Part shown: positions 5,478 to 61,141 of the stretch, piece by piece
How the letters are laid out: the number at the start of each line of letters is the position of its first letter
Numbering within the stretch: position 1 is the first letter of the stretch
NCBI RefSeq assembly: GCF_900106075.1
Contig: NZ_LT629794.1
Location: 434,001-498,000 of the forward strand
From: Polaribacter sp. Hel1_33_78
GTDB lineage: Bacteria; Bacteroidota; Bacteroidia; Flavobacteriales; Flavobacteriaceae
Direction: 5' to 3'
DNA length: 64,000 nt
Translations under genes and position numbers: made by a program
The notes under the pieces: model-generated
Databases searched by the model: none
What the model was told of the DNA's origin: nothing
What the model saw: the letters and a program-made list of their open reading frames with translations, nothing else

Positions 5478-8400
5478 TTATTCTTTTATTATGAAAGTAC
5501 TAGTATTATTAATTTTTAAAAGATAAACACCAGAAGTTAAAGATGCTGGTAGTTTTATTCGAGTTTCTTTTTTATGATCATTAAAGATTTTTTGAAAAGA
5601 AGATATTTCTCTTCCAGTGATATCGAATAGTTTAAAAGTATCTTCAAAATTAGTATTAGTTACATATAATCCTCTGTTTTTTACTGGATTTGGGAATACG
5701 CTGTTTACAACCGAATATTTAGAAGTATGAGCCGTTTTTCCTTCAAAATAAGCTACTGCGAAATTAAATGCATCTATGCCTAATTTTTGACCAATTTTTC
5801 TACCTGGAATATCATCAGCAGGAGGATGAATACCACCCCAAATCCTAGATAAACTGCATTGATCTGAAGCGTCTCTATAAGTAGCCCATTGCAAAGTAAC
5901 ATCTTGAGAAGGTCCCTCTTCAAAAACTAAAAACTCATTTTTCTTAGCAATAAATTCACCGAGACCACCAGGAAAATATTCATCACCAGTGATTAATGTT
6001 AAAACTTCTGCAGCTGCTCGTGAAAATGTTGAATGCCCCGATACGAAACCAGCAAATGGTGGAGTCACAAATGAAGGACGTTGATAAGGCCACCAGTTTT
6101 CCGCTAATATCCAACCAACACCAGCTTGATCTGTTTCTACATTTTGAATATTATCATGTCCTTTCCATGTATATACTTTTATTTTTCCTAAATGCTGCGA
6201 GCTATTGCCAACCAGTGGATCATTTTCTTTTACGATCTCTATATAATTGTCTATTAATTTAATTCCTTCTGGATGAAAGTTTGGCGCTGCAGGATCTGAA
6301 CTTTGTCCTTTGTCGGTCATATATCGAATTGCAGAAATTGGACGAATGTAATCGTACCAGCCTTTTATACTCCAAGCAGAAATTGCAGCATCGTGCATCG
6401 CTCCGCCAAGTATAAAATAAGATTTTACATCCCATTCAAGAGCCTCAAGTACTTCTCCATCACCTTCAAATTTTTTGGTTGTTAAAGGATTGTCATTTAC
6501 ATAATTAAGAATCGAGAACCAATGCCCTGGTGGTGTTTCAGAATCTGGACCATCTGCCCAAAACTCTGCTAGCACTCTGGTATAATCTCCTCTTGGAACA
6601 AGTTGCGTTTCATAACTTGCATTTGTTTTTGGGTTTATTGGCCTACCTTCACTCATATCTCCACCTTCAAACAGTTTGTAAAAATCTGAGTAATTTCGAA
6701 AGTCATCTGGAAAAGATGTACTAGAAATATTACCAATAGATTTTGGAGAGATATCCCAAATAACACCATCATTAGCATCTAGGTGAGACCCCCAAATGGA
6801 TACTAAAGAAAATCCCCATTTATAGGCATCACTTGATGAAGCATTATTCACTGCATGAATATATGGAGGGTCTGAAGGATCATTATAAACTAAAAAATTA
6901 TTATTATCTCTTTGATATGTTACAACATCATCATTTTTAAGCGCAAAAGGAGAAACATTGCCCCATTCTGGGTTTAAAAATTGAGTAGCACCGCCATCTA
7001 TGAGGTTACCGCTTTGGTCTATAAAAGAACTAAGACTTAGAGGTTGCCACCTATTCGGATCTTGAATTGAACTATTTCCTGAGAAAATTGGTAATAAAGG
7101 ATCATTGAAGGGCGTATAATATGCATTATCATAATTTGTTTGTTCTCTCGAACCATCAATTTTGCCATATTTAATAATTTCATCAGCAATATAATTTCCA
7201 AGTGCAGCAGCATTTCCAGAGGTATAATCTAATGAAGTATAATTTATATCAAATCCTAATTGATTCATAATTAAGTCGAATCTTATTTTTGAGGAATCGA
7301 ATCCAGGAGAGTTTTTAAAACGTTGGCTAAGCAAACGATATGCAGCATAGCTTATTGTTTTTTTTATTGATATTTCAATACTTTCTTTTGGTACAAATTC
7401 CAAAAGTTCACTACTGAAGTTATGCACATCATTACCAATTAAATAAGGCTTTGCCATTTCATTATATATTGCCCATGTATCATACAAGGCAACACTAATA
7501 TGAAAAAGATTTCTAGCATGCACGGTGGGTCTGGCGAAATCATTTCTAATAGCTTGTAAAAGCACTTCATTCCAAATTCTAGCAATAGATTTGTCTACTG
7601 ATATCGCATTAATATTTAATTGGACTTCTAAATTTACGGGAGCACTTGCACAATTTGAAGTAACTTCTTTAACCGAAATGATGCCTTTTTCTTCAACTCC
7701 CCATTTCACTTTAACGGCATTAGTTCCTTGTCCTTCAATAATTTCTCCACCAATTATCGACCATGCTGAAGTTGAATTCGTCGGCAAAGGATAGGTGTAA
7801 ATTTCTTCTTTTAAAAACCCTGAATTTGTATTTCCAGTAATTTCTGCTATTTGTAAGTATTCGCATGAACCATCATCTATGTAAGCTCTAGGGTTGTACG
7901 TGCATGAGTTAGGGTCTGTACACCCAGAAACCTTAATACTGGGCTCAATATCTAAAACCTTATATCCGTTGCCTTCTGTAGCTTTAATAGTCGTGTTCGT
8001 ATTTATATTTTGATAGGTTTCTATTAATCCTGATGGCCAATGAATAGATAATTCTAAAACCTCAGAATCATTATTTAATCCAAAATGAACAGGTGCTAAA
8101 CTTTGATTTAAAAACCCAACACCATTGTAATATCTTTTTATAGTTCTATTCGAAGTAGTTAAGGTTAAGGCTGCACCAATGGCATCTCTATTTGAATTTG
8201 TACCTTGTAATTTAACTTTAAACCATTTTAGATTATTAGTTTCGTTAAAATCGAGCGTTTTGTTTTCATAAAAATAAGAAGATCTATCACTGTTTGTAAC
8301 AAAAAGATCTAAATCACCATCGTTGTCAAAATCAAAAGGTTGCGCACTAACACTTGTTGTTAAATCTTTTAAATTTATATCTTCCGAGATTTCAACAAAA

Positions 8401-12098: not shown

Positions 12099-13709
12099 TT
12101 ACATTATTTGAAATTCAGACATTTGCACCATTGTTCCAATTAAACTTCTAAGCTTGTTTTCAATAGAATTTTTTAGAGCAGTATCCGAAGGATTCGCAAT
12201 AAACTCGGAATATTCTACAGTCCATTCAAAGTCAGGTAAACCCGGAATTAATATATCTTTTAAGCTATCAATTTGATTTTGAGAAATTTCATAATTAAAT
12301 AATTGGTTCGCTAATGATGTAATTAAAACAATAGGGTTTTCAGCATTTGTTATGTTTTCAGCTAACAATAAAACCGGCACTAAGGGCGGTACTGAATACT
12401 TTTTTTTATCAATTAATAAGTCACCTCCCGTAACTAAAATTTTACAGTAGTCCAATCTTTTTGGTAGTAGATAATTGTTTACCCAAGTTTTATAAAAGAG
12501 CGGTTTTTGATAATAAGCTTTCCATCCTGCAACATCTGGATGGTTAAATACAGACTGACCCAAATCCGTGCAAGCTAAGTACATAATATAAGCAAAATCG
12601 TACTCTTCTTTAATAGAAGTTACTGGCGCGCTAAGCAAAAGTGACTTAGTTGCAGAAAGTATGAGGTCTACTGGACTTTTAATCATGCAGAAAACAGTTT
12701 CGAAAAAATGTTCTGATGAAAATAATTTTTTAAGTGCAGGAACAATTTCGTAATTATTATCTCTAGTTATTTCAGCTAGAGGTTCTATAATATTCGTTTC
12801 AATTTCTGCAGTAATATCTGAGTTGATAAACCAAATATATAATTGTCTAACAATAAATTTTGAACATTCATCTTCTTGAAAAATTCGATCAATTAAGTCT
12901 TTATATTCATTTTCTCCATTTTCAGAAAGAACATGATTATTAAACCTAGGAGATAATGTTTTGGAATCTTTAGAGTGTTTAAAATTAGAAAAATAAGATT
13001 CTAAGGCTTCCTCATGAGTTAGCCCTCTAACTCGCCAACCAGTTAATACTTTTGCCATTTGTAATACATCATCTTCTGTATAGTTTGTGTAATCTCCAAT
13101 GCCAACAACATCTCCTTTTCCAATTGTAAAAAGTTCTAAAAGTTCTCTAGAATAATTTTCGTTTGGAGCCATGTCTGTATTTTGAGAACCACTTAAATAA
13201 CGCAACATATTAGGGTCTGTAGTAATCTGTTTTGTCAATTCTTTAAAATTTCCTAAAGAATGAGTTCTCAACAAATTCATATAATAATATTCTAAATGTG
13301 GATTAAAGGAAACAGAAACAAAGTGATTATGCCAAAATAAAGTTAGTTTCTCTGATATTGACATTCCAGCATTTTGCATCTGCAAATAAGACCAAGAATA
13401 CAAAGAACGACCTCTTCTATTAATAACCTTATTTCGTAAAGTTTTGTCTTCTATTACAGGAATAGCTTTTCCATTTACCCAAGTTTCTCCATATTTTGCA
13501 TCAGGATCTAATAAATCATCTTCTGTTAGATATTTTAATGGAGGGTCTGTTAAAGAAGGCGAACTGAAAAGTTTCTCAAGAGTCTCTGTTAAACCTAAAT
13601 TTAAAGCTTCAGAAACCATTGATTCTGTTACTCCAAAGGAAGTTCTTTTTAATAAGTGTCTTGCTTCTTTTGCTGTAAAATTTCCAGAAAAAGTATTCAA
13701 ATATGGCAT
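12099..13709 (-). CDS. DUF1800 family protein
   Basis: A 536-residue member of the DUF1800 family. Diagnostic segments are the opening FTAKEARHLLKRTSFG, KLTLFWHNHFV (residues about 118-128) and NENYSRELLELFTIG (about 183-197), followed by DVLQMAKVLTGWRV. The gene lies directly upstream of the DUF1501 gene with one intervening base, a strongly conserved pairing. I see no N-terminal signal peptide, although its partner carries both Tat and T9SS signals. Biochemical activity is not established for the family. A good -7 promoter element lies about 40 bases upstream of the ATG. Confidence 0.88.
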   Translation of the reverse strand: MPYLNTFSGNFTAKEARHLLKRTSFGVTESMVSEALNLGLTETLEKLFSSPSLTDPPLKYLTEDDLLDPDAKYGETWVNGKAIPVIEDKTLRNKVINRRGRSLYSWSYLQMQNAGMSISEKLTLFWHNHFVSVSFNPHLEYYYMNLLRTHSLGNFKELTKQITTDPNMLRYLSGSQNTDMAPNENYSRELLELFTIGKGDVVGIGDYTNYTEDDVLQMAKVLTGWRVRGLTHEEALESYFSNFKHSKDSKTLSPRFNNHVLSENGENEYKDLIDRIFQEDECSKFIVRQLYIWFINSDITAEIETNIIEPLAEITRDNNYEIVPALKKLFSSEHFFETVFCMIKSPVDLILSATKSLLLSAPVTSIKEEYDFAYIMYLACTDLGQSVFNHPDVAGWKAYYQKPLFYKTWVNNYLLPKRLDYCKILVTGGDLLIDKKKYSVPPLVPVLLLAENITNAENPIVLITSLANQLFNYEISQNQIDSLKDILIPGLPDFEWTVEYSEFIANPSDTALKNSIENKLRSLIGTMVQMSEFQIM

Positions 13710-13749
13710 AGTCCAGTATAAATTGGAGGTAAACTAGTCGCAGTTATTT

Positions 13750-13757
13750 CAAATTTA
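13750..13757 (-). promoter_or_regulatory. -7 promoter element for the DUF1800-DUF1501 operon
   Basis: The minus strand reads TAAATTTG, a perfect TAnnTTTG match, 41 bases upstream of the DUF1800 start codon. A -33 element is not clear. The 121-base gap between this operon and alaS holds nothing else that I recognise. Confidence 0.5.
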
Positions 13758-13830
13758 GTGTTTTTTATTTGAAACAGTTAACAGTTAAAATATTTTATAC
13801 TAAGACTTTATGTTTTTTAAAAGGTTTAAT

Positions 13831-16449
13831 TTAAACCAAATAATCTTTTGCTCTTTCTAAAGCTTTAGAAATTCCACCAGGATTTTTACCACCTGCAGTT
13901 GCAAAGAAATTTTGACCGCCACCACCGCCATGAATTAATTTACCCAATTCTCTTACAACTGTTCCTGCATTATATCCGCGTTCGTTTGCTAATTCTTTAG
14001 AAATGTAGCACGTTAGCATCGCTTTGTCTTTTTTCTCTGAAGTTGCAAAGAGCAAGAATAAATTTTTATATTCTTTTCCAATAGCAAATGCTAAGTTTTT
14101 AATACCATTTTGATCTAAATCTACTTTTGTAGCTAAGAATTGAACGCCATTAATTTCTTGCAATTGATTTTTAATTTCGCCCGTTAAATTTTGAGCTTTA
14201 TCTTTTAGTAATTGTTCAATTTGTTTTTGCAAAGAAGTATTTTCTTCCTGTAATTTCTTTACTGCTTTCACAGGTTCTTTTGTGTTATTTAACAAGTCTT
14301 TAATTTCAAATAAAGCTCTGTTATTTTCGAAATAAAAATCTTTTACGGCATCATTGGTAATCGCTTCAATTCTTCTAATTCCTGCGGCAACTGCCCCTTC
14401 AGATTTTATTTTGAAATGCCAAATATCACCTGTGTTTTTTACGTGAGTTCCACCACAGAGTTCTATCGATTTTCCGAATTTTATAGTCCGAACGGTGTCT
14501 CCATATTTTTCACCAAACAAGGCCATTGCTCCCTCCTCAATTGCTTGTTGCATTGGAATGTTTCTTTTTTCTTCTAAAGGAAGTTTACCTGCAATTCTTC
14601 TATTTACAAAATTCTCAACTTCTCTTAATTCATCAACGGACATTTTAGAAAAATGAGAAAAGTCGAAACGTAAATGTTTTGAGTGAACAGCCGAGCCTTT
14701 TTGTTCTACATGTTTTCCTAAAACTTCTCTTAATGCTTGATGTAATAAATGAGTAGCTGTGTGATTGCATTCCGTTACGTAACGTTGTTTTGCATCTACA
14801 ACCGCTTTAAAAGTCTCGTTAATGTGCTTTGGAAGGTTTTTAGTAAAATGAATAATAACATTGTTTTCTTTCTTGGTGTCTAAAATGTAAACAACATCGC
14901 CATGGGCCGTTTCTAAATATCCTTTATCACCAACTTGACCGCCACCTTCTGGATAAAAAGGAGTTAAATTAAAAACTAATTGATACATTTCACCATCTTT
15001 TTTAGAGGTAACTTTTCTGTGTCTCGTAATTTTCACATTCGTTTCTAATGCATCGTAACCAATAAATTCTTCAACAGCGTCATCATTCAAAATAGTCCAA
15101 TCATCTGTAGACATTTCGCTAGCAGCTCTAGATCTATTTTTTTGTTTTTGAAGTTCAATTTCAAATCCTTTTTCATCTAAAGTATATCCTTTTTCAGATA
15201 AAATTAAAGCAGTTAAATCGATAGGAAAGCCATAAGTATCATACAATTCAAAAGCTTTATCGCCAGGAATTTCTTTCGTTTCTGCTGAAGATACAATACC
15301 GTCTAATAAAATTAAACCTTGATCTAAAGCCCTTAAAAAAGAGGTCTCTTCTTCTTTAATTACATTTTCAATCAATTGTTTTTGAGCTTTTAATTCAGGG
15401 AAAGCAGCTCCCATTTTCTCACTTAAAACAGCAACTAATTTGTAAATAAAAGGTTCTTTTTTATTGAGGAAGGTAAAACCATACCTTACAGCTCTTCTTA
15501 AAATTCTACGTATTACGTAACCTGATCCTGTATTACTTGGTAACTGACCATCAGCAATTGAAAAAGCAACAGCTCTTACATGATCAGAAATTACACGAGT
15601 TGCAATATCTTGTTTTTCATTAGTACCATATTTTGTATCCGTAATGGTTTCTATTTCTTTAATTATGGGTGTAAAAACATCCGTATCATAGTTAGATTGA
15701 ACCCCTTGTAAAACCATACAAAGACGCTCGAAGCCCATGCCTGTATCTATATGTTTGTTTGGTAAATTCTCTAAATCGCCTGAAGCTCTGCGATTGTATT
15801 GCATAAAAACTAAATTCCAAATTTCTACAACATGAGGATGGTCTTCATTGATTAAAGTTCTACCATCAACTTTTGCTTTTTCTTCTGCGGAACGTATATC
15901 AACATGAATTTCAGAACATGGTCCACACGGTCCTTGTTCACCCATTTCCCAAAAATTATCTTTTTTGTTTCCCTTTAAAATCCGGTCTTCAGAAATATGT
16001 TGTTTCCATAAATCATATGCTTCTGTATCCATATTAAGATTATCAGCATCATTACTTCCTTCAAAAACAGTTACATATAAAATGTCTTTATCTATTTTGT
16101 AGACTTCAGTCAGTAACTCCCAAGCCCAAGAAATTGCTTCCTTCTTAAAATAATCTCCAAAAGACCAATTTCCTAACATTTCAAATAATGTATGGTGGTA
16201 GGTATCATAGCCAACTTCCTCTAAATCGTTATGTTTTCCTGAAACACGTAAACATTTTTGAGAGTCAGTAATTCTATTCTTTTTTGGTTTTCCATTTCCC
16301 AAAAAATATTCTTTAAAAGGCGCCATTCCAGAATTCACAAACATTAATGTTGGATCATCTTTAGTAACCATGGGAGCAGAAGGAACTACCAAATGCGATT
16401 TTTCTTGAAAAAAATTTAAAAAAGTGGAACGAATATCTTGAGATTTCAT
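13831..16449 (-). CDS. alaS: Alanine-tRNA ligase
   Basis: Charges tRNA-Ala with alanine and edits mischarged seryl- and glycyl-tRNA-Ala. At 872 residues it is a full-length class II enzyme. The N-terminal synthetase domain has [13 protein letters not shown] and TLMFVNSGM near residues 14-40 and [13 protein letters not shown] (113-125). The editing domain carries the zinc motif HTATHLLHQ and the later CGGTHV. The C-terminal DHHA1-type region shows the glycine-rich GGGGGGQ segment close to residue 850. There are no frameshifts or unusual residues. It is divergently transcribed from the M23 peptidase gene. Confidence 0.98.
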
Positions 16450-50391: not shown

Positions 50392-50916
50392 ATGAAGGAT
50401 AAATCGAATATTTTAGTTGAAAAAAGAAACAGTGAGGTCTTTTTAAGGCCAAGGTTTACAATTGATTTAGACAAAAGCACTGGTCAAATACTTGAAAATT
50501 TTTCAAAGGAATTAAAAAAGGAGGACTGTCAATTTTTAGGAAATATTTTTGATGGACACGTTTTTATAAGTGTTTCTAAAAAAGAGGAACATTTTTGGTC
50601 TCCGCAACTACATTTAGAAATTTTAGAAAAAACAGCACAAAAATCTGTTTTAAAAGGATTGTTTGGACCTAAGCCTCAAGTCTGGACGCTTTTTATGTTT
50701 GTGCACTTTGTTACAGGTATTTCTTTTCTAGGTTTTGTGGTCATGCTCTTTGCAAAAATATCTTTAAATGAACCTGTCTTTTTTCCAGTTATCATGATGG
50801 TTTTTTTATCACTAATATGGCTTGTTTTGTATCTCTTGGGTAAAATAGGAAAAGATACCGGTAAAAAGCAAATGAGCGATCTGCATGATTTTATGATAAA
50901 AGTAATTGGAGATTAA
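50392..50916 (+). CDS. Hypothetical two-helix membrane protein
   Basis: A 174-residue protein of unknown function. The N-terminal 100 residues are soluble and hydrophilic (FLRPRFTIDLDKSTGQILENF, then GHVFISVSKKEEHFWSPQLHLEI). Two transmembrane helices follow (about 104-125 and 131-153), and a short tail ends LHDFMIKVIGD. It has no signal peptide, so the soluble part is probably cytoplasmic. It stands between der and the adhesion block, reading away from der. Similar short proteins appear beside der or era in relatives (from memory), but no activity is known. Confidence 0.72.
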   Translation: MKDKSNILVEKRNSEVFLRPRFTIDLDKSTGQILENFSKELKKEDCQFLGNIFDGHVFISVSKKEEHFWSPQLHLEILEKTAQKSVLKGLFGPKPQVWTLFMFVHFVTGISFLGFVVMLFAKISLNEPVFFPVIMMVFLSLIWLVLYLLGKIGKDTGKKQMSDLHDFMIKVIGD

Positions 50917-51171
50917 AAAAAATTTATGTGAGATTTTACTGAAGATTGTGATAGTATCATATATCAAAATTTTTTTTTCTAGATAAAATTTTTTTTCATC
51001 TAAAAGTCAGGTTTTTAGATGCTTTAAAATATAATTTTAAAAAATTCATCTTTGAAATATTTTAATTAGTCTTTTATTTTTCTTAATATTGGAGAAATAA
51101 ATATCTTAAAATCAGCTTTGTAAGCTTATCATTTTTTAATTTATTTTTTTTTAATAAAAAAAAATTTGTTT

Positions 51172-51642
51172 ATGAAAGCTACTCTCCTTGCAGTAATTTG
51201 CAGTTTAATGTCATGTTTATTCTATGGTCAAGAAGTTATTCCTGTATCAGGCGGTAATGCAATGGGGGCCGGATCTGTAAGTTATACAGTGGGTCAGTTA
51301 ATGGTAGTTAAAAATACTGCGAACAATGGTTCAGTGGCACAAGGTATACAGCAGAGTATAGAGTTGTTTACGCTAGTAAATCCAACATTAAAAACCCTTA
51401 CCCTAAAAGCGGTTATGTTTCCTAATCCTACAAAAGACAAGATTATATTATCACTTACAGACAATACTTTAACAGCATTGTCTTATAAAATATATGATGT
51501 TGGTGGTAGAGTAGTTAAAAAAGGAAAAGTAAATCAAGAAAACACCTCCATTGCTATGAAATATGTAGCTTCTGGAGTGTATATCTTAAAAGTTGCTCAA
51601 AATAACAAACAATTAAAAGTCTTTAAAATAATAAAAAATTAA
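51172..51642 (+). CDS. Small secreted T9SS type A sorting-domain protein
   Basis: A 156-residue exported protein. ATG 51172 is chosen over a TTG two codons upstream. A signal peptide (MKATLLAVICSLMSCLFYGQ) leads to the motif IPVSGGNAMGAGSVSYTVGQLM, which recurs in small Flavobacteriaceae surface proteins. A T9SS sorting domain from about residue 80 (MFPNPTKDKIILS ... GVYILKV) follows. The product is little more than a secretion tag plus a short beta segment. It is followed after 2 bases by the DUF1566-like gene, and both lie upstream of a LuxR-type regulator and the giant adhesin. Confidence 0.85.
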   Translation: MKATLLAVICSLMSCLFYGQEVIPVSGGNAMGAGSVSYTVGQLMVVKNTANNGSVAQGIQQSIELFTLVNPTLKTLTLKAVMFPNPTKDKIILSLTDNTLTALSYKIYDVGGRVVKKGKVNQENTSIAMKYVASGVYILKVAQNNKQLKVFKIIKN

Positions 51643-51644
51643 GC

Positions 51645-52565
51645 ATGAAAAAGATATTTATAATTTTAGCGTTGGTGATAACCACTGTTTCTTTAGCGCA
51701 AACTCCAGAGAAAATGAGTTATCAAGCCATAGTAAGAGATGCTGATGGTAATTTGTTAAGTAATACATCGGTTGGAATGCAAATAAGCATTTTGCAAAGT
51801 ACAGCTGAGGGTTTGGCAGTATATGTAGAAACACATTCGCCAACGACCAATATAAATGGACTAATTACAATAAAGATAGGAAGTGGTTCTAAAGCTACTG
51901 GTATTTTTTCTGAAATAGATTGGAGTTCAGATACGTATTTTATAAAAACAGAAACAGATCTTTTAGGAGGAAGCAGTTATACAATTTCAGGAACCAGTCA
52001 ATTATTAAGTGTTCCATATGCATTACATGCAAAAAAGGCGGATAATGTTCCCAGTTATAAAATAGGGGATTTTGCACATGGAGGTATTGTTTTTTGGGTA
52101 GATGAAACAGGGCAGCATGGTTTGGTTTGTGCGAACGAAAATCAAAGCAATGAAACAAAATGGTTTGCGGGTACATTTGGCAATACACAGGCAAAAGGAA
52201 ATGGTATTTATGCTGGTAAGACAAATACTAGCATTATAATTTCCTCTCATGTAATTATTGGTGATGATAATGACATGTATGCAGCAAGATTATGCAATGA
52301 ATTAGAAGTGATAGCAAACAATGTTTCATATGGCGATTGGTATTTGCCAAGTATTTTCGAGTTAAAATTAATTAACCTTAATATCGTAACCATCAACACT
52401 GCAATAGCAGCAATTGGAGGAGATTCCTTTTTAGGGGATAGTTTTTATTGGAGTTCTGTAGAAGAAACAGAAAGCAATGCAGGGATCGTTAATATTAATA
52501 ATGGTCAAAGTTCTGCTGTGTTAAAAGGGAGTTTAAATTCTGTACGTGCCATCAGATCATTTTAA
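51645..52565 (+). CDS. Secreted protein with a DUF1566/Lcl-like C-terminal domain
   Basis: A 306-residue exported protein with a signal peptide (IFIILALVITTVSLAQ). The N-terminal part, PEKMSYQAIVRDADGNLLSN to SVPYALHAKKA (about 20-128), is a beta-sandwich-like module common in Bacteroidota surface proteins. The C-terminal part, HGGIVFWVDETGQHGLV ... GDWYLPSIFELKLIN ... YWSSVEE, matches the DUF1566/Lcl type of lectin-like fold found in collagen- or sugar-binding adhesins. It lacks a sorting domain of its own. It lies between the small T9SS protein gene and the regulator gene in one orientation, probably as one operon. Confidence 0.8.
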   Translation: MKKIFIILALVITTVSLAQTPEKMSYQAIVRDADGNLLSNTSVGMQISILQSTAEGLAVYVETHSPTTNINGLITIKIGSGSKATGIFSEIDWSSDTYFIKTETDLLGGSSYTISGTSQLLSVPYALHAKKADNVPSYKIGDFAHGGIVFWVDETGQHGLVCANENQSNETKWFAGTFGNTQAKGNGIYAGKTNTSIIISSHVIIGDDNDMYAARLCNELEVIANNVSYGDWYLPSIFELKLINLNIVTINTAIAAIGGDSFLGDSFYWSSVEETESNAGIVNINNGQSSAVLKGSLNSVRAIRSF

Positions 52566-52601: not shown

Positions 52602-53162
52602 ATGACTGAAATTAAAACAGTTTTAATAGACTCTGATCAACCATCTTTAATTAGGCTTCAAGAGCTGTTAGCAAAATTTAATGGTATAGAAATTCTAGGG
52701 ACTTTTGAAAACTCAAATGAAGGCCTAGACTTTATACTAGAAAACGAACCTGATATAGTCTTTATTCAAATAGAAATGCCAAATCTGTCTGGGTTAGATG
52801 TGGCAGACGAAATTAGTAAGCGAGAAACAGATATAAAAATAATATTGGTTTCAAATCATTCTCATTATGCTATCAAAGCATTAAGGATATCTGTTTTTGA
52901 CTATTTAGTTGAACCGATTGATATAGATGAATTAAAAATTAGTTTGCATCGATTTAAAACTAAGTACAAGATAAATTTAAACAGTAGAGAGCTGCAAATT
53001 ATTAGAGAAATGTCTAATGGACTAAGCAGTCAAAATATTGGTGAAAAATTATTTATTAGCCGGCATACAGTAGATACTTACAGAAGAATCATTTTAGAAA
53101 AATCTGCTTGCCAGAATACCGCACAGTTAATTAAGTTTGCTTTAAAAAGTGGTTTAATTTAA
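52602..53162 (+). CDS. LuxR-type regulator with an unphosphorylatable receiver domain
   Basis: A 186-residue protein with an N-terminal response-regulator receiver domain (about 5-120) and a C-terminal LuxR-type helix-turn-helix (REMSNGLSSQNIGEKLFISRHTVDTYRRII, about 136-165). The phospho-acceptor aspartate is replaced by glutamine: the segment is DIVFIQIEMPN (Q56), where relatives have LDIEMP. The switch lysine is also lost (YLVEPID, E104). Acidic residues near the start (D10, D12) and S84 remain. The receiver should therefore not be phosphorylated normally. Its position between two adhesin-type genes suggests that it controls them. It lies 36 bases after the DUF1566-like gene. Confidence 0.88.
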   Translation: MTEIKTVLIDSDQPSLIRLQELLAKFNGIEILGTFENSNEGLDFILENEPDIVFIQIEMPNLSGLDVADEISKRETDIKIILVSNHSHYAIKALRISVFDYLVEPIDIDELKISLHRFKTKYKINLNSRELQIIREMSNGLSSQNIGEKLFISRHTVDTYRRIILEKSACQNTAQLIKFALKSGLI

Positions 53163-53423
53163 CTTTTATATCCTTGAAGGGTGCTTTTTGCGTTCAAGCA
53201 CTTCTTGATGAGGTTTAACTTCACGATGCTATTTGTTCTTATCTGCAATGCCTTTCATTAAATAAAGAAATGACCAGTTTTTTCACCAACAAGTGTTTGC
53301 TTGATAATGAACTAACCATAACACTAATATTTTTCCTAGTAATCAAATGCTTTTACCAAACTTTTTGATAGTATTTTAACAGAACCCGAAAACAACTTAC
53401 AGTTTTGGCAACGATTTTAAAGT

Positions 53424-53477
53424 TTAACCAAAACGTTTTAACCGATTTTTATCACTTTTCCACTTTTCATCTACTTT
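53424..53477 (-). pseudogene. Relic of the 3' end of an era gene
   Basis: On the minus strand the bases from 53477 down to 53424 translate as KVDEKWKSDKNRLKRFG-stop, matching VKVNKNWRSDKNQLKRFG at the end of intact Era (60257-61141). By hand count 47 of 55 aligned bases are identical, beginning with the 17 bases at 53425-53441, which match 60270-60286 exactly. The frame can be followed weakly further upstream (LFII). The remnant lies in the same orientation as era and forms a direct repeat with its end, with the adhesin gene in between. Confidence 0.85.
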
Positions 53478-53511
53478 TAAGATGATGAATAGTGCTATTT
53501 TATCGATGAAT

Positions 53512-53549
53512 TACTCATTAATGGGGGTAAAGTGTCTCATTAATGAGTA
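53512..53549. promoter_or_regulatory. Inverted repeat with a 12-bp palindrome, candidate operator
   Basis: TACTCATTAATG (53512-53523) and its exact reverse complement CATTAATGAGTA (53538-53549) are separated by 14 bases. The right arm contains CTCATTAATGAG (53536-53547), itself a perfect palindrome. The two CTCATTAATG copies are 22 bases apart, about two helical turns. The position, 120-160 bases before the adhesin start and directly after the LuxR-type regulator gene, suits a regulator binding site. Confidence 0.55.
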
Positions 53550-53583
53550 GTGGTTTTGTCTTTATTTATTAGATATTTGTCGT

Positions 53584-53610
53584 TCTCTAGGGATTAATCC
53601 CTTTTAGAGA
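53584..53610. promoter_or_regulatory. Nested palindrome upstream of the giant adhesin
   Basis: TCTCTA (53584-53589) pairs with TAGAGA (53605-53610), and between them GGGATTAATCCC (53590-53601) is a perfect palindrome. It lies about 60 bases before the adhesin ATG and could be a hairpin in the leader or a second operator. No T tract follows, so it is not an obvious terminator. Confidence 0.45.
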
Positions 53611-53671
53611 GCTTTAAAAAATAAAATTTATTTTAAAAAAAAGCGCAAATAGATATTAAAATTACCAAACT

Positions 53672-56600
53672 ATGATTAAAAAAATAACCTTTTTAAGTGT
53701 TCTTTGTTTTTTTACGATTACCGCAACATTCAGTAATAATGACGTAGAAAAAGCAAATTCTTCAAACACAGAAAACAACCCAAATTTTACATTAGATGCA
53801 AACGGTGTTACTTGTAATTGTGATAACGCTGCCAATCTTGAGACAGGTGATTTAACCATTAATGGAGTTACAAAAACGTTTACCAAAAGAACAGAGGCTC
53901 AATTACGAGCTTTAATTGCTGCAGACCAGAATGACCCAGAAATAGGTTTAACCTGTACTAGTGGTATTACAGATATGAGTGATTTATTTAATAATAAAAT
54001 TACTTTTAATGAAGATATCAGTTCTTGGGATGTGTCTAGTGTAACTAATATGAAATTTATGTTCTTTGGAGCAAATTTCTTTAACCAACCTATTGAAGAT
54101 TGGGATGTATCTAAAGTAACTAATATGTGGGGCATGTTCTATGAATCATTAGAATTTAACCAACCGATTGGAAATTGGGACCTTTCTAGTGTAACTAGTA
54201 TGTATTCCATGTTCTATAGGGCAGCAGCATTTAACCAACCAATTGGAAATTGGGATGTTTCTAAAGTAACTAATATGGATAGTGTGTTCTACAGGGCAAG
54301 TAACTTTAACCAACCGATTGGAAATTGGGACGTTTCTAGTGTAACTACCATGTATCTTATGTTCACAGAGGCAGCAGCATTTAACCAAGATATTGGAAAT
54401 TGGGATGTGTCTAAAGTAACTGTTATGGCTTATATGTTCCTAGATGCAGCAGCATTTAACCAAGACTTAACAGGTTGGTGTGTTACAAACGTAGTCAATA
54501 CTTTTAGTTTTGCAACTAACGCTACCAATTTCGTTTCAACTAACCACCCTGTTTGGGGTACTTGTCCTAACACCACCCCAACAGACATAACATTAAGCGC
54601 AAGTGCAATAGATGAAAATGCAGCTACAGCAACTACCGTAGGGGCCTTTAGCACAACAGATGCAGACAGTGCAGATACACATACCTACAGCTTAGTTGCA
54701 GGTACAGGAGATACCAATAATGCAAGCTTTACAATTGATGGGGCAGACCTTAAAACCAATGCGGCTATAGATTATGAAATCAACCCAACTTTAAGCATAC
54801 GTGTACAAACCAATGACGGTACAGATACTTTTGAAAAAGTAATCACCATAACCGTTAATGATTTAGATGAAATAGCACCAGTAATCGCTTTAAATACACC
54901 AACGATACAAACAATAGAAGTAGGTACAGCTTACAGTGAATTAGGAGCAACAGCAACAGATAATGTAGATGCTGCCAATACTTTAACAGTAGTGCCAACA
55001 GTAAATAATGAGAATACAGCAGTTGTTGGTAGTTTTACTGTAGATTACAATGTTTCAGATGCAGCAGGAAATGCAGCAACAGAGGTAACAAGAACGGTAA
55101 ATGTAGTAGATACAACTGCGCCAACCGTTGTAACCAAAGACATTACAGTTCAATTAGATGCAAATGGAAATGCGAGTATTACGGCAGGTGATATTGACAA
55201 TGGGTCTTCAGACAACTCAGGCAATGTTACTCTCTCCCTTGGATCCTCTAGTTTACAAGCTGGTTTCAATAATACAGCCTTAGATAGCGGTTTTGAATTA
55301 GTGAATGGTGCCGATTGGGTTTCAGGTATTTCAGGTTCCGGTAATTTAAATGGAGCGTTTGTTGCGAAGAAGACCTCATCGGGTAGAAATTATTTAAGAA
55401 CGGTCGCATCCGATTTTATCAATTCTGATTTTGAAGTCATCTTCACTTATGATGATAGCAATGTTGCATACGGTGGCGACATTTTAACCTTCCTAGGCAT
55501 AGGAGACCCTTCTGTTACTGAAGGAATCTTTTCTGAACCTGACATGGGTATTTTTTTAAGAGATCATTCCAACCAAAACGGTTCAGCCGATCATATAACG
55601 AGTAGACTTTCCGGTGTCAACTCGCTTACTTCAAACTCTTATATTCCTGAAGGAAAAAAAAGAGTCAAGATGGTTAAATCTGGTAATCAGATTACTTTCT
55701 TCATAGATTCAGGAAATGCAGGTACTTTTCCAACCAATGGGCAAGGTTTTGATTTGACTAGTGCTGGTTCTAATTTCTTAAATGATACAAATTCATACAT
55801 CTTCTTTGGAAGTGGTTCAACAAATGTGCAACTGGATGAGATTTCTATTACATCTACAAGTCAACCAGGTGTATATGATTGTGCTAGTTTAGGGCAAAAT
55901 GCTGTTAATTTGGTCGTTACCGATGTTAATGGCAATACTGCAACTGCAGCGGCTACTGTAACGGTAGAAGATAACATAGCTCCAACCATTGCATTATCAG
56001 GAGATGCTAGTGTAACACACGAGGCTTTAACGGCATACACAGACTTAGGTGCTACTACTGCAGACAACTGTTCTGCAACACTTACAGTTACTGATGATAT
56101 AAATGTAAATACTTTAGGTATTTACACTGTAACTTATACTGCAACAGACTCAAGTGGTAACGTAACTACAGCCACTAGAACTGTAAATGTTGTAGATACC
56201 ACAAAGCCAGTAATTACCTTAATAGGAGATAACCCACAAATAGTAACTCTTAATACTGCATATGAAGAATTAGGAGCAACAGCTGCAGATAATTATAATG
56301 GAGATATAACAACAAGTATTGGAATAAATACTTTAGCGATAGATTTAGCAACTGTCAATTGTTATCCTGTAACCTATAATGTTTCAGATGCATCAGGAAA
56401 TAATGCAGTACAATTAACAAGAATCGTATTTGTTTTAGAATATGGTAAACCATTAGCTAAAAGTGATACTAAAACAGTAGCTCAGGATAGTAAAGACAAT
56501 CTTTTTACAATTATTGGAAATGATAGTTTTGGATTAGATGGAGCGCATGCAGACCACCCAATCGCACTCTCAGGAACGTATACAGATAATGGAGGAAAGT

Positions 56601-59600
56601 TAGATTTAGTTGGAGATGAAGTAAAATATACACCACGAGCAGGCTTTTTTGGAGTTGATAAATTTAGTTATACCATTACAGATGAAAACGGAGATGCATC
56701 AACAGCAGAAGTAACAATTACGGTAACTGAAGGTTCGGTAGCTAACAATCTTACAGCAGTAGCTGATGAAAAAACAGTTATAAGAGGTGGTACAACAACT
56801 ATAGTTGTGCTATCAAATGATCTTTTAGGAACAGCAACAGCAGCAGATTTAGATGCGATAACAATTAGTAATAATATAAATGGCGCAGTAATTACAGTAA
56901 ATTCTGACAATTCAATAGAATATGAATCAGTATCAACTTTTTCAGGATCAGAAGATACTTTTGAGTACACGATTAAAGAGACTGGCACTGATAATTTATC
57001 AACAGCTATAGTAAGAGTAATTATAGAAGATTCTGTGGTTACAGACAGTGTATTGTCAGCAAAAAATGATGAAGTAAGCGTAGCACAAAATAGTACAGAT
57101 AATGAAATAGCTGTTTTATTAGACAACGGATTTGACATAGATAGCTTTGGATTAGATGGAGCAATAGATAATGGCTTAACATTTTTAGATGGAACGCTAA
57201 CCGGCCTAAGTGAACAAGGAACAATAATTGTAGACACTAAAGGCACAACCACTCCATTAGATGATGTAATTGTTTACACACCAAATACAGGTTTTGTAGG
57301 AGTAGATCATTTTTATTATATGATTACAGATACAACAGGAGCTTCTTCCATAGCACAAGTAGCAATCACGGTAACAGAAATAGATGCACCAACAGCGGCA
57401 GATGATGCTATAGAGATATTAGAAGGTAGTGTTGCAGCAGTAACTATTGATGTATTAGATAATGACAGTTTTGGATCGAATGGAGCAGCTTTATCAAATT
57501 CACTTGAAATAATTCCTACTACTACGACAGCAGTAGTAGTAAATGGAACTTCAATAGAATATACACCTACAGGAACTCAAACAGGAACTGATACTTTTAC
57601 ATATCGTATTAAAGATGCTGATGGTGAGACATCAGACGCAACAGTAACAGTAACATTCACTTCGGTAATTGCAAGTGACGCGCCAAAAGCACAGGATGAC
57701 GCAGTTATATTTGCACAAGACAGTTCAGAGAATATTATCAATATTTTAGATGATAATGGATCTGGAGCAGATAATTACGGATCAGGTGCTGAACATCCAA
57801 GCCATCCAATATCACTTGTAGCATTTTATTCAGAAGAGGGAGGGGCGTTAGAATTAGACGGAACAACTGTAAAATATACACCAAGAACAGGTTATTTTGG
57901 AGAAGATACTTTTGATTATTTGATTACAGACGAAAATGGAGTTTCTGACAGAGCTACTGTAACAATTACGGTAACTGAAGGTTCGGTAGCTAACAATCTT
58001 ACAGCAGTAGCTGATGAAAAAACAGTTATAAGAGGTGGTACAACAACTATAGCTGTGCTATCAAATGATCTTTTAGGAACAGCAACAGCAGCAGATTTAG
58101 ATGCGATAACAATTAGTAATAATATAAATGGCGCAGTAATTACAGTAAATTCTGACAATTCAATAGAATATGAATCAGTATCAACTTTTTCAGGATCAGA
58201 AGATACTTTTGAGTACACGATTAAAGAGACTGGCACCGATAATTTATCAACAGCTATAGTAAGAGTAATTATAGAAGATTCTGCGGTTACAGACAGTGTA
58301 TTGTCAGCAAAACGTGATGAAGTAAGCGTAGCACAAAATAGTACAGATAATGAAATAGCTGTTTTATTAGACAACGGATTTGACATAGATAGCTTTGGAT
58401 TAGATGGAGCAATAGATAATGGCTTAACATTTTTAGATGGAACGCTAACCGGCCTAAGTGAACAAGGAACAATCATTGTAGATACTAATTCTTCAGATAG
58501 TCCATTAGATGATGTAATTGTTTACACACCAAATACAGGTTTTGTAGGAGTAGATCATTTTTATTATATGATTACAGATACAACAGGAGCTTCTTCCATA
58601 GCACAAGTAGCAATCACGGTAACAGAAATAGATACGCCAACAGCGGCAAATGATACTATAGAGATATTAGAAGGTAGTTCTGCAGCAGTAACTATTGATG
58701 TATTAGATAATGACAGTTTTGGATCGAATGGAGCAGCTTTATCAGATTCACTTGAAATAATTTCTTCTGGTACGGGAACAGCAGTAGTAGTAGATGGAAC
58801 TTCAATAGAATATACACCTACTGGAAATGAAACAGGAACTGATACTTTTACATATCGTATTAAAGATACTGTTGGTAAGACATCAGACGCAACAGTAACA
58901 GTAACATTCACTACGGTAATTGCAAGTGACGCGCCAAAAGCACAGGATGACGCAGTTATATTTGCACAAGATAGTTCAGAGAATATTATCAATATTTTAG
59001 ATGATAATGGATCTGGAGCAGATAATTACGGATCAGGTGCTGCACATCCAAGCCATCCAATATCACTTGTAGCATTTTATTCAGAAAAGGGAGGGTCGTT
59101 AGAATTAGACGGAACAACTGTAAAATATACACCAAGAACAGGTTATGTTGGAGAAGATACTTTTGATTATTTGATTACAGACGAAAATGGAGTTTCTGAC
59201 AGAGCTACTGTAACAATTACGGTAACTGGTTCAGTAGCAAATGGTCTTACAGCAGTAGCTGATGAAGTAGCAGCTGTAGAAGGTGTTACAAGAACTATAA
59301 ATGTATTAGTAAATGATGTTTTCGAAACAGGAACTTTAGAAGCGGTAGTGATTAGTAATGAATCTGGTGAAGTAACCATCACTGTAAATTCTGATAATAC
59401 TTTAGAATATACATATACAGTTGCACCAGGAGCAACTTTTACAGGAACAACAGATACTTTTAACTACACTATTAAGGAGGCCGGTACTACTAATGAATCA
59501 ACAGCTACCGTAACGGTAACGATTCAAGCAGCAGATGCAGTAAATGGCGTACCAGAAGCAAAAGGGGATACATTTTCAGTAGTTCAAGGAATAATGAGTT

Positions 59601-60178
59601 CATTAGCTGTATTAGCTGATAATGGATCAGGAGTAGATAATTTTGGTTCAGATGGAGAAAATACAACAAACCCATTAAGGCTTTTTAATGGAACAACAGA
59701 AGGTAAAAGTGTTAAACAAATAGAAAGAGAAGCTCAGGGAAGCAGTGCATTTAACAATCTTGTAGTTAATTCAGGTAAGATTGAGTACACACCGGTAGCA
59801 GCTTTTATAGGAGAAGATAGTTTTTATTATAAGATTGTAGATGCAAGTGGAGACGAATCAATAGCACAAGTAACCATTAATGTTACTTCTTCAAAGTCTT
59901 CAGGGATTGTAACTACTGACGCAGTAATCAAAGACCTTCAAGTATATCCTAATCCGTCAAAAGGTGCTTTTAAAGTATTAGTTTATAGTGAAAAGGCAGA
60001 ACAAGCTTCTGTACTATTATTTGATGTTACTGGTAAAGTGGTGTATAACAAGAAACAATTACTTTCTGCAGGGAACAATACAATGAACTTACATGTAAAT
60101 GTGCAAACAGGTATTTTGTTTTTAAAGGTGTATACAGATAACACCAACTTTGGAACTAAAAAGATTTTATTTGAATAG
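53672..60178 (+). CDS. Giant multidomain T9SS surface adhesin
   Basis: A 2168-residue exported protein. Order: signal peptide (1-22); seven 25-residue DUF285/BspA-type repeats (about 97-270, FNQPIGNWDVSxVTxMxxMF); a cadherin-like domain (300-403); a DUF5011-type Ig domain (403-485); and an HYR-type Ig domain interrupted by a LamG/concanavalin-like insert (about 518-730). Then come two more DUF5011-type domains (769-920), eleven Big_9/cadherin-like modules (about 925-2080), and a T9SS type A sorting domain (about 2086-2168). Two 1.25-kb stretches, each coding for four modules, are near-identical tandem copies. It should form a long surface fibre for attachment or gliding. No catalytic site is seen. 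It is flanked by era sequences on both sides. Confidence 0.93.
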   Translation: MIKKITFLSVLCFFTITATFSNNDVEKANSSNTENNPNFTLDANGVTCNCDNAANLETGDLTINGVTKTFTKRTEAQLRALIAADQNDPEIGLTCTSGITDMSDLFNNKITFNEDISSWDVSSVTNMKFMFFGANFFNQPIEDWDVSKVTNMWGMFYESLEFNQPIGNWDLSSVTSMYSMFYRAAAFNQPIGNWDVSKVTNMDSVFYRASNFNQPIGNWDVSSVTTMYLMFTEAAAFNQDIGNWDVSKVTVMAYMFLDAAAFNQDLTGWCVTNVVNTFSFATNATNFVSTNHPVWGTCPNTTPTDITLSASAIDENAATATTVGAFSTTDADSADTHTYSLVAGTGDTNNASFTIDGADLKTNAAIDYEINPTLSIRVQTNDGTDTFEKVITITVNDLDEIAPVIALNTPTIQTIEVGTAYSELGATATDNVDAANTLTVVPTVNNENTAVVGSFTVDYNVSDAAGNAATEVTRTVNVVDTTAPTVVTKDITVQLDANGNASITAGDIDNGSSDNSGNVTLSLGSSSLQAGFNNTALDSGFELVNGADWVSGISGSGNLNGAFVAKKTSSGRNYLRTVASDFINSDFEVIFTYDDSNVAYGGDILTFLGIGDPSVTEGIFSEPDMGIFLRDHSNQNGSADHITSRLSGVNSLTSNSYIPEGKKRVKMVKSGNQITFFIDSGNAGTFPTNGQGFDLTSAGSNFLNDTNSYIFFGSGSTNVQLDEISITSTSQPGVYDCASLGQNAVNLVVTDVNGNTATAAATVTVEDNIAPTIALSGDASVTHEALTAYTDLGATTADNCSATLTVTDDINVNTLGIYTVTYTATDSSGNVTTATRTVNVVDTTKPVITLIGDNPQIVTLNTAYEELGATAADNYNGDITTSIGINTLAIDLATVNCYPVTYNVSDASGNNAVQLTRIVFVLEYGKPLAKSDTKTVAQDSKDNLFTIIGNDSFGLDGAHADHPIALSGTYTDNGGKLDLVGDEVKYTPRAGFFGVDKFSYTITDENGDASTAEVTITVTEGSVANNLTAVADEKTVIRGGTTTIVVLSNDLLGTATAADLDAITISNNINGAVITVNSDNSIEYESVSTFSGSEDTFEYTIKETGTDNLSTAIVRVIIEDSVVTDSVLSAKNDEVSVAQNSTDNEIAVLLDNGFDIDSFGLDGAIDNGLTFLDGTLTGLSEQGTIIVDTKGTTTPLDDVIVYTPNTGFVGVDHFYYMITDTTGASSIAQVAITVTEIDAPTAADDAIEILEGSVAAVTIDVLDNDSFGSNGAALSNSLEIIPTTTTAVVVNGTSIEYTPTGTQTGTDTFTYRIKDADGETSDATVTVTFTSVIASDAPKAQDDAVIFAQDSSENIINILDDNGSGADNYGSGAEHPSHPISLVAFYSEEGGALELDGTTVKYTPRTGYFGEDTFDYLITDENGVSDRATVTITVTEGSVANNLTAVADEKTVIRGGTTTIAVLSNDLLGTATAADLDAITISNNINGAVITVNSDNSIEYESVSTFSGSEDTFEYTIKETGTDNLSTAIVRVIIEDSAVTDSVLSAKRDEVSVAQNSTDNEIAVLLDNGFDIDSFGLDGAIDNGLTFLDGTLTGLSEQGTIIVDTNSSDSPLDDVIVYTPNTGFVGVDHFYYMITDTTGASSIAQVAITVTEIDTPTAANDTIEILEGSSAAVTIDVLDNDSFGSNGAALSDSLEIISSGTGTAVVVDGTSIEYTPTGNETGTDTFTYRIKDTVGKTSDATVTVTFTTVIASDAPKAQDDAVIFAQDSSENIINILDDNGSGADNYGSGAAHPSHPISLVAFYSEKGGSLELDGTTVKYTPRTGYVGEDTFDYLITDENGVSDRATVTITVTGSVANGLTAVADEVAAVEGVTRTINVLVNDVFETGTLEAVVISNESGEVTITVNSDNTLEYTYTVAPGATFTGTTDTFNYTIKEAGTTNESTATVTVTIQAADAVNGVPEAKGDTFSVVQGIMSSLAVLADNGSGVDNFGSDGENTTNPLRLFNGTTEGKSVKQIEREAQGSSAFNNLVVNSGKIEYTPVAAFIGEDSFYYKIVDASGDESIAQVTINVTSSKSSGIVTTDAVIKDLQVYPNPSKGAFKVLVYSEKAEQASVLLFDVTGKVVYNKKQLLSAGNNTMNLHVNVQTGILFLKVYTDNTNFGTKKILFE
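54004..54480 (+). repeat. DUF285 75-bp repeats inside the adhesin gene
   Basis: About seven imperfect 75-base units encode WDVS(S/K)VTNM-MF--A--FNQPIGN. The DNA units are similar but not identical, which suggests old duplication with selection on the protein. They are coding repeats, not a CRISPR array, because no constant repeat and unique spacer alternate. Confidence 0.85.
56711..59210 (+). repeat. Near-identical tandem duplication of 1.25 kb within the adhesin gene
   Basis: Unit 1 starts at 56711 and unit 2 at 57959 (1248 bases, 416 codons). The same boundary recurs at 59210 (1251 bases, 417 codons), where a more diverged third partial copy starts. Each unit encodes four Ig-like modules beginning SVANNLTAVADEKTV. 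The first half of each unit differs by only a few bases, while the second half carries several substitutions and one inserted codon. Confidence 0.92.
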
Positions 60179-60197
60179 GTTAATAATAGTTGTAAAT

Positions 60198-60232
60198 AAA
60201 AAAAAGAGGAACTGAAAAGTTCCTCTTTTTTT
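60198..60232. terminator. Bidirectional terminator between the adhesin gene and era
   Basis: AAAAAAGAGGAACT pairs with AGTTCCTCTTTTTT around a short GAAA loop, with an A tract before and a T tract after. It lies 20 bases after the adhesin stop and 25 bases after the era stop, which are convergent, and serves both. Confidence 0.92.
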
Positions 60233-60256
60233 GTGATGGTATTTTAAAAGAAATAA

Positions 60257-61141
60257 TTAACTCTGATTATAACCAAAACGTTTTAATTGATTTTTATCGC
60301 TTCTCCAGTTTTTATTGACTTTTACATATAATTCGATAAACACTTTCTTTTCGAAAAATTTTTCTAAATCTTTTCTAGCTTCTGCACCTACACGCTTAAT
60401 CGCAGACCCTTTATGGCCGATTATAATTCCTTTTTGGGTTTCACGTTCAACCATAATTACAGAACGAATACGCACAATATGTTCTTCTTCAGTAAACTCT
60501 TCTGTCTCTACTTCTACAGAATACGGAATTTCTTTCTTATAGTGAATTAATATTTTTTCCCTAATTTTTTCATTGACAAAAAAACGTTCTGGTTTGTCCG
60601 TTAATTGGTCTTTTGGATAGTATGGAGGCCCTTCTGGAAGCAGCTCTTTTATTTTGTCAAAAACAGCAGTGATATTAAATTTCTCTAAGGCAGAAATCAC
60701 AAAGACGGAAGCGTTTGGTACTTTTTCTGTCCAATACTTCACTTTTTCTTCTACTTCATCTTGTGTAGATTTATCTATTTTATTTAATAACAAAATTACA
60801 GGAATTTCACTATGAATGATTCTTTTAAAGAAAGCTTCGTTTTTTAACTCCTTTTCGCCAACCTCTACCATGTAAATTAAAACATCGGCATCATCTAATG
60901 CCGATTTTACGAAATCCATCATTGAAGACTGTAACTCATAAGCGGGTTGTATAATTCCTGGAGTATCAGAAAACACAATTTGATAGTCTTCTTCGTTTAC
61001 AATTCCTAAAATACGATGTCTAGTCGTTTGCGCTTTTGGTGTGATAATAGATAATTTTTCACCCACCAAGGCATTCATCAATGTTGATTTACCTACGTTC
61101 GGATTTCCTATAATATTTACAAAACCAGCTTTATGTGTCAT
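60257..61141 (-). CDS. era: GTPase Era
   Basis: A 294-residue GTPase that binds 16S rRNA during 30S maturation. It has GNPNVGKST (P-loop, near residue 12), DTPG and NKID motifs, and a C-terminal KH domain with GHKGSAIKRVGAEARKDLE. The ATG lies only 4 bases behind a TATCTTTG promoter element, so the mRNA may be leaderless. A diverged copy of its last 20 codons lies at 53424-53477 beyond the adhesin gene; the intact gene ends FGYNQS while the relic ends FG-stop. This suggests that the 3' end was renewed by an insertion. Confidence 0.97.
   Translation of the reverse strand: MTHKAGFVNIIGNPNVGKSTLMNALVGEKLSIITPKAQTTRHRILGIVNEEDYQIVFSDTPGIIQPAYELQSSMMDFVKSALDDADVLIYMVEVGEKELKNEAFFKRIIHSEIPVILLLNKIDKSTQDEVEEKVKYWTEKVPNASVFVISALEKFNITAVFDKIKELLPEGPPYYPKDQLTDKPERFFVNEKIREKILIHYKKEIPYSVEVETEEFTEEEHIVRIRSVIMVERETQKGIIIGHKGSAIKRVGAEARKDLEKFFEKKVFIELYVKVNKNWRSDKNQLKRFGYNQS

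Follow-up and report, generated by a model that had tools for sequence, protein, structure and literature searches.

The window, a stretch of 64,000 nucleotides from the genome of Polaribacter sp. Hel1_33_78, contains a cassette that codes, in this order, for a T9SS protein, a protein named P306, the LuxR-type regulator RR186 and a predicted adhesin, and that is followed by era on the opposite strand. The following features were recognised at this locus (L and G numbers denote the loci and genomes compared):

50392..50916, plus strand: P174, a conserved protein lacking Pfam matches (matched by tblastn in 82 of 131 era loci)
51166..51642, plus strand: T9SS-sorted protein of 158 aa, first gene of the cassette (Por_Secre_tail)
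51645..52565, plus strand: P306 (Lcl_C match below the curated cut-off)
52602..53162, plus strand: RR186, response regulator with a LuxR-type (GerE) DNA-binding domain (domain match)
53163..53423, plus strand: P1, probable decayed promoter segment, box now TTGATGAGG (RR-anchored alignment)
53425..53479, minus strand: relic of the era 3' end, 17 codons plus stop (repeat search, translation, blastn)
53473..53479, no strand: ACTTTTA of the novel joint, with further copies at 53162-53168 (on the RR186 stop side) and 60318-60324 (in era)
53480..53671, plus strand: P2, intact promoter segment (0 of 500 shuffles against the post-RR segments of each of L052, L094 and L065)
53672..60178, plus strand: predicted adhesin A of 2168 aa, with a DUF285 head, a Big_9/cadherin-like stalk and a T9SS tail
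60199..60236, plus strand: terminator-like hairpin and T run, 60236 being the right limit of identity with adhesin B
60237..60256, no strand: terminator-to-era intergenic, seen also at locus B (left of its era relic) and at locus C (right of its terminator)
60257..61141, minus strand: intact era, 294 aa (ORF)

The stop of P174 overlaps or abuts the era stop in several relatives without insertion, and P174 ends at the era stop in L040, L055 and L090. The 158-aa T9SS protein occupies the same place in L052, L094, L065 and L190-L193. Matches to RR186 with E <= 1e-30 occur in 12 of the 166 genomes of the genus, its own included. The relic lies between RR186 and the start of the adhesin, and the edge of the insertion is further left, with the start of the cassette at about 51166. 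In the 6.8 kb between the repeats the adhesin is indeed the sole gene, as the initial annotation had stated, but it is the fourth gene of a larger cassette.

The two arms of the direct repeat, 53425-53479 and 60270-60324, agree at 47 of 55 bases, an exact run of 17 bases included. The relic is in frame with the C-terminus of Era; its minus-strand translation is KVDEKWKSDKNRLKRFG followed by a stop, compared with KVNKNWRSDKNQLKRFG in the intact protein. The claim that a diverged era 3' end lies upstream of the adhesin in the same orientation as era is therefore confirmed. The relic peptide scored 72 (BLOSUM62) against Era, with a next-best match of 38 in 131 other oriented era loci, and no second era-end match comparable to the relic was found in these 131 loci, among which some genomes are present twice, some contigs end early and some carry masked N. 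Searching the same loci with the relic by blastn gave 62 matches, of which the best 12 were all at era ends (best E = 2.8e-13). These results support the view that the 55 bp are a displaced era end, marking a recombination event that involved the 3' end of era. No era-end match besides era itself was found in L190-L200, L092, L094, L052 and L065, L193 and L092 containing masked N. A genus-wide DNA search with relic and box covered 166 genomes with about four candidates scored per genome, so that relics elsewhere may be missed; among the matches listed, only the strain's own genome had more than one over the era-end part. A second relic of the same kind is present in this genome outside the window, at L189 from position 7515.

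The promoter segment P2 starts directly after the relic and carries the paired box ACTCATTAATG...CATTAATGAGT at 53513-53548 (C1:487513-487548), with the box word CTCATTAATGAG. In relatives this segment comes after RR186, and a decayed version, P1, seems to follow RR186 here as well, as judged from alignment; the junction of era end and promoter is accordingly read as a novel joint. In RR-anchored alignment against mononucleotide shuffles, the first 80 nt of P1 were significant against three of the 11 genomes only (0 of 150 shuffles for G485, G467 and G040; 9-139 of 150 for the other eight). Unanchored, 16, 116 and 260 of 500 shuffles were counted for L094, L052 and L065, respectively, L094 being matched weakly. 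The exact 12-mer box occurs about 40 nt after the RR186 stop in five of the 12 genomes with RR186 (G467, G485, G491, G009, G040). As the box is found somewhere in 51 of 166 genomes, and a reversed control also in many, its link with RR186 rests on position; RR186 may control the adhesin.

A second predicted adhesin (B) is located about 106 kb away from the first, between comM and an SLC13 gene and away from era, and it bears the same joint, the era 3' end being directly joined to the post-RR promoter at both A and B. Positions 53420-53577 align through the joint to L189 7510-7666 (72.5%, E 1.2e-14), and L189 7484-7565 aligns to 60238-60321. The order at B (intergenic, era end, promoter, adhesin, terminator) reads as a one-period circular permutation of A: the BLAST alignment starts at the equivalent of 60238 and stops at that of 60236, one period to within a few nucleotides. 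This order rests partly on a flank match of about 31 nt of AT-rich DNA, in which the left flank of B, anchored against the terminator-to-era intergenic, was equalled by 4 of 1000 shuffles for A and 1 of 1000 for C, and unanchored by 57 of 2000. The segment after the relic at B gave 0 of 500 shuffles against L094, 1 of 500 against L065 and 124 of 500, that is no match, against L052. The stops of comM and SLC13 abut in G005, an empty site for B, and among 30 comM loci only that of the strain itself has an adhesin beside it. For the flanks of unit B that the empty site lacks (197 and 251 nt), no clear match was found. Adhesins A and B share 674 identical 3' bases, yet are only about 72% identical around the joint.

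The third paralogue (C, at 2.15 Mb) retains at its right end the terminator-to-era intergenic and the last bases of era. The three paralogues of this one genome have unlike N-terminal parts and a common 3' end; the C-terminal sorting domain PF18962 is above cut-off in all of them, and their domains suggest that A, B and C are adhesins. Locus C was also considered as a tRNA-bounded element and rejected, as no stretch of more than 10 nt of the adjoining tRNA recurs in the 40 kb beyond. The 17-bp run TAACCAAAACGTTTTAA is shared without mismatch by relic A, relic B and era, and its edge is both the start of relic A and the stop of the era tail at C. The start of relic A and the end of the copy at C thus nearly coincide in era position, and a site-specific crossover would give the same.

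Adhesins preceded by the same cassette genes are located between RR186 and era in another five genomes of the genus, G009, Polaribacter sp. MSW5 (G485), G015, G491 and P. glomeratus (G467); in each the cassette is placed between der and era. The relic was not found at these era-side adhesins, two G467 loci having about 3.3-3.5 kb of masked N each. The cassette at era therefore looks older than the relic. In P. glomeratus the interval from RR186 to era contains two consecutive adhesins, separated by a regulator-like and a P306-like gene, which indicates that the era locus is able to hold two. The initial annotation had proposed that the adhesin was inserted at era and supplied a replacement end. 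The comparison of related genomes at der-era speaks against this, as adhesins occur there and the relic was not found, and so do the joint of relic and promoter and the second copy of that joint far from era.

The era-end repeat is probably the scar of a duplication of the adhesin unit together with a scrap of era, and not of an insertion at era, because a second adhesin carries the same scrap at a distant place where era is absent. The ancestral order on the plus strand would have been RR186, promoter, adhesin, terminator, short intergenic and era 3' end. A short-homology event between ACTTTTA at the RR186 stop and ACTTTTA 55 bp inside era would have joined the era 3' end to the promoter, the product being either a tandem duplication or a one-unit circle. 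The joint-bearing unit, opened between the terminator and the era end, would then have given rise to locus B, the simplest route being the insertion of a circle; one unit probably moved in this form. At the era locus the joint would have been kept and the left adhesin copy deleted, leaving the decayed P1 and the relic. Afterwards, heads may have been exchanged and 3' ends homogenised by gene conversion.

ACTTTTA is present at all three places that the duplication requires, and directly after the RR186 stop it occurs in the strain's own P1 and not in the 11 relatives compared. It occurs nine times in 53001-60400, and such 7-bp microhomology is not rare: at least 7 bases are shared with the era stretch by 394 of 20000 random and 1044 of 63985 window 15-mers. 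The left flank of relic A lacks the terminator-to-era intergenic (anchored score 0), so that the model has to include a deletion with its end at the 17-bp core; gene conversion has to be added as well, to account for the identical 3' ends of A and B beside their divergent joints. Two adjacent copies of the unit are not present at era. Putative remnants of the first copy are the relic and P1 only, adhesin copy 1 being absent, and 53163-53423 gave no blastn match beyond itself in the loci compared.

The same duplication may have proceeded without a circle, a two-unit tandem array at era providing a linear piece, from intergenic to terminator, that was copied to comM. This would give the same order at B, and the two serial adhesins of P. 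glomeratus agree with it; however, two breaks would have had to fall independently at one and the same phase of the repeat (the 60236/60238 equivalents), whereas a single break suffices for a circle, and this route is considered unlikely. Recombination of a relative's DNA, with adhesin and 3' part of era, into era would make the relic the recipient's own former era end. The eight differing bases of the relic agree with such an origin, as do the four other loci that tie with the strain's own era at 47 of 55 and L065, the best, at 48. For relic B, too, the strain's own era comes close to the best (47, a value shared with three other loci, against 49 for the best of 132 compared), so that no donor stands out. 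Such a transfer explains neither the joint nor the further copy of it at a distance from era, nor ACTTTTA after the RR186 stop in this strain alone among those compared, and appears improbable. It is equally doubtful that the unit is an integrase-free mobile cassette addressed by homology, whose excision between relic and era would yield a circle able to integrate at era in related cells by homologous recombination. Because it carries a piece of a near-universal gene, such a circle could enter any related era; if this were true, the circle would place a new adhesin head under the LuxR-type regulator of the recipient.

Some integrative elements restore the 3' end of a host gene, and as with these a displaced conserved-gene 3' end in direct orientation is present at the far side of the insert. 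Unlike them, the era and comM loci have no integrase nearby, B has no att sequence and the era-side adhesin is seemingly older than the relic. The absence of an integrase, noted in the initial annotation, was borne out: tyrosine- and serine-recombinase matches number zero in the window, and of the five PF00589 and three PF00239 matches in the genome none lies within 690 kb and 360 kb, respectively, of loci A or B. Beyond C, at a distance of 6.0 kb, one of the PF00589 matches is located (C1:2162034), which makes the duplication slightly less likely and an integrase slightly more; for C alone, an integrase may have been involved. Searches for the origin of the era end returned five weak phage matches only (E = 1, 22-27% of the query), no plasmid matches and two viral_contigs matches, both in unrelated sequence, and a phage or plasmid origin was rejected. 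An insertion hotspot at era, or this adhesin unit, was not found among the literature titles and beginnings of abstracts surveyed. Entry of an integrase-borne element that supplied a new era end and later lost its integrase, with TAACCAAAACGTTTTAA as att core, would fit the exact 17-bp run, the two ends at its edge and the recombinase beyond C, but is very improbable given the distance of any other such match from A and B, the opening of B outside the core (C ends at the core edge), the missing tRNA repeat at C, the lack of a convincing era-end match in phage, plasmid or viral collections and the era-side adhesins at which no relic was found.

T9SS-secreted modular adhesins of Flavobacteriaceae are SprB-like in role. 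Those described here resemble them in having a Por_Secre_tail and a repeated Ig/cadherin-like stalk, and differ in that a single genome has three paralogues, which share their 3' end but not their N-terminal parts.

Duplications through circular intermediates have been outlined for human segmental duplications, with cattle translocations cited there, and in mammals permuted block order has been taken as an argument for circle-mediated gene relocation (PMC7450558). As in the cases outlined there, the derived copy has a reversed block order (A-B to B-A) at a distant site, with joints of at most short homology. Those cases concern large mammalian segments with 1-2 bp of microhomology, whereas a bacterial unit of about 7 kb and a 7-bp homology are involved here, and the adhesin joint, unlike theirs as outlined, is also retained at the source locus. 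Bacterial tandem duplication and amplification, e.g., RecA- and IS-dependent, as summarised in PMC9946442, likewise gives a novel joint in direct orientation and can be resolved by loss of one copy. Compared with the duplications summarised there, the adhesin unit has no recognised IS or long repeat at its ends, one unit was relocated and a diverged scar was left.

A displaced end of a conserved gene is by itself no evidence for an integrase-borne island. The locus may be a small bacterial case of circle-mediated relocation, in which source and target have both retained the joint, and as the marine bacterium can be cultured, it could be put to experimental test. It also suggests a way in which a single genome could acquire multiple surface proteins that share the end of the stalk and differ in their heads, the same promoter box preceding two of them.

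The genome of Polaribacter sp. Hel1_33_78 is a single contig of 3.23 Mb, in which the window corresponds to G000:C1:434001-498000. Judged by Era identity, the closest named relatives belong to Polaribacter (93% to both P. filamentus and a Polaribacter MAG); two further genomes of the genus reach 94%, and Tenacibaculum shows 80-87% among the matches listed. The direct repeat described in the initial annotation is real. Positions 53425-53479 and 60270-60324 agree in 47 of 55 bases, 17 of them consecutive, and the relic translates as KVDEKWKSDKNRLKRFG followed by a stop, against KVNKNWRSDKNQLKRFG in intact Era. Among 131 further oriented era loci (51 + 80 from two overlapping sets, with some contigs ending early) no second era-end match scored above 38, compared with 72 for the relic.

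50392-50916: P174, a conserved 174-aa gene near era without a Pfam match, present in 82 of 131 era loci
53425-53479, minus strand: relic, a diverged copy of the era 3' end
53672-60178, plus strand: adhesin A
60257-61141, minus strand: intact era
C1:381714-386627: adhesin B, 1637 aa, between genes taken to be an SLC13 transporter and comM
C1:2150079-2156027: adhesin C, 1982 aa, after a tRNA

Many relatives have der about 600 bp past the era stop, and the gap is filled by convergent P174, whose stop sits at that of era. In the window, a four-gene cassette is interposed, consisting of a T9SS-sorted 158-aa protein, P306, RR186 (Response_reg + GerE) and the adhesin. RR186 homologues (E <= 1e-30) were detected in 12 of 166 genomes of the genus and, in a sample of the family, in 3 of 397, our own included in both counts. 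The cassette is located between der and era in six of the twelve: our own, G009, G485 (Polaribacter sp. MSW5), G015, G491 and G467 (P. glomeratus), the era position in the last being drawn from a separate genus-wide DNA search plus locus L092. Two extra ORFs, which we take to resemble transposases, separate the adhesin from era in G491. RR186 is distant from era in G458, G023 and G041; in G031 the cassette adjoins der and era was not found, and in G530 and G040 the assembly is too broken up for the cassette to be placed relative to era. At none of the other five era-side loci, two of which carry masked stretches, was a relic found; an adhesin can thus lie next to era without the relic event.

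In relatives, a palindromic box, CTCATTAATGAG, occurs about 40 nt past the RR186 stop; in some, a second site follows about 22 nt beyond, and then a TAnnTTTG-like element, presumably a promoter motif. The box precedes adhesin promoters, sometimes paired (window 53513-53548), is present in the post-RR segments of G485, G491, G009, G467 and G040, and is a candidate RR186 site. In P. glomeratus G467 (L193 reversed, 12214 and 12528-14024), two serial adhesins lie between RR186 and era, and a second paired box precedes a 498-aa gene. The post-RR186 segment occurs twice in the window. The probable decayed copy (53163-53423), directly after RR186, was matched in anchored alignments by 0/150 shuffles against G485, G467 and G040, and by 9-139/150 against the other eight genomes. 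The intact copy (53480-53671), directly after the relic, gave 0/500 against each of L052, L094 and L065, relatives' era loci with the cassette; the relic is thus joined to the sequence expected after RR186. The word ACTTTTA is present at three places where a short-homology event would have left it, namely 53162 (RR186 stop), 53473 (joint) and 60318 (corresponding place in era). It occurs nine times within 53001-60400, and such a match alone is not rare (394/20000 random 15-mers).

Two further adhesins of this genome, B and C, share the 3' end of A, and the final 674 bases of B are identical to those of A. A second era relic, its translation broken by a frameshift and a stop, begins upstream of B at 7515 of L189 (the B locus), where a paired box is also present (7602-7637). 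The A-B alignment continues across the joint (53420-53577 to L189 7510-7666), with about 72% identity around it. Of the earlier proposal, the displaced end of era is retained; insertion at era is not, given this same joint at B and the other era-side adhesins without a relic. The post-relic segment of B was matched by 0/500 shuffles against L094, 1/500 against L065 and 124/500, i.e., no match, against L052. Terminator-era intergenic sequence extends left of the B relic (anchored, 4/1000 shuffles against A and 1/1000 against C; unanchored, 57/2000). By BLAST ends, unit B starts at the equivalent of 60238 and stops at that of 60236, one era-locus period, permuted. It is flanked by 197 nt (L189 7287-7483) and 251 nt (L189 12687-12937), for which a sequence search gave no clear match; both are absent from the empty site of G005, where the comM and SLC13 stops abut. 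Only our own genome among 30 comM loci has an adhesin beside comM; 2 of the 29 others show SLC13 within the 1.5 kb covered. comM was split or partly found in 8 of 52 matched genus genomes (58 searched; G002, G011, G018, G021, G022, G031, G035 and G041). In this genus comM may itself be a target of insertions; unfinished contigs may account for some of these cases.

The N-terminal parts of the adhesins (A 1-310, B 1-275, C 1-450) did not match pairwise (best E 0.85), A carrying DUF285, B a GH16 match and C other matches; C has a LamG domain at 870-1016. A and B each carry one long internal tandem duplication of stalk modules, 1270 nt in A (96.6%; window 56711-59228) and 963 nt in B (98.8%; L189 9785-12019).

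The simplest history to account for these facts would be that the promoter-adhesin-terminator-era 3' end unit was duplicated via the ACTTTTA joint, that one unit moved to comM through a circle, and that the left adhesin was lost from the era locus. Later gene conversion between A and B would explain identical 3' ends beside a more divergent joint. A block order turned from A-B to B-A, as in unit B, is argued in PMC7450558 to be the signature of such duplications in human. The nearest rival is linear transfer to comM out of a tandem array.

Integrase-driven, site-specific insertion at era would fit the start of relic A, and the end of the era tail of C, at the 17-bp core, the exact run common to relic and era; the 3' homology of C passes through the intergenic into the last era bases and stops where this core begins, with no era relic upstream of C. 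It would also fit a 387-aa tyrosine recombinase 6.0 kb past C (L252 1361-2524 = C1:2161461-2162624), next to presumed polymerase-like genes and a gene for a presumed methylase/nuclease-like protein of 900 aa. However, there is no integrase at A or B, no att site at B and no related element at era. The genome has five PF00589 and three PF00239 matches, none near the era or comM loci (nearest PF00589 about 690 kb off). Over the next 40 kb, the tRNA of C has no repeat exceeding 10 nt, and a tRNA-bounded element is therefore not apparent at C. A foreign donor era as source of the relic is not favoured, since our own era already ties for second place as a match to both relics among 132 compared.

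Duplication of the adhesin unit with relocation through a circle would belong to an already known class of events, here well preserved and in an unusual setting, and its circle step is testable.
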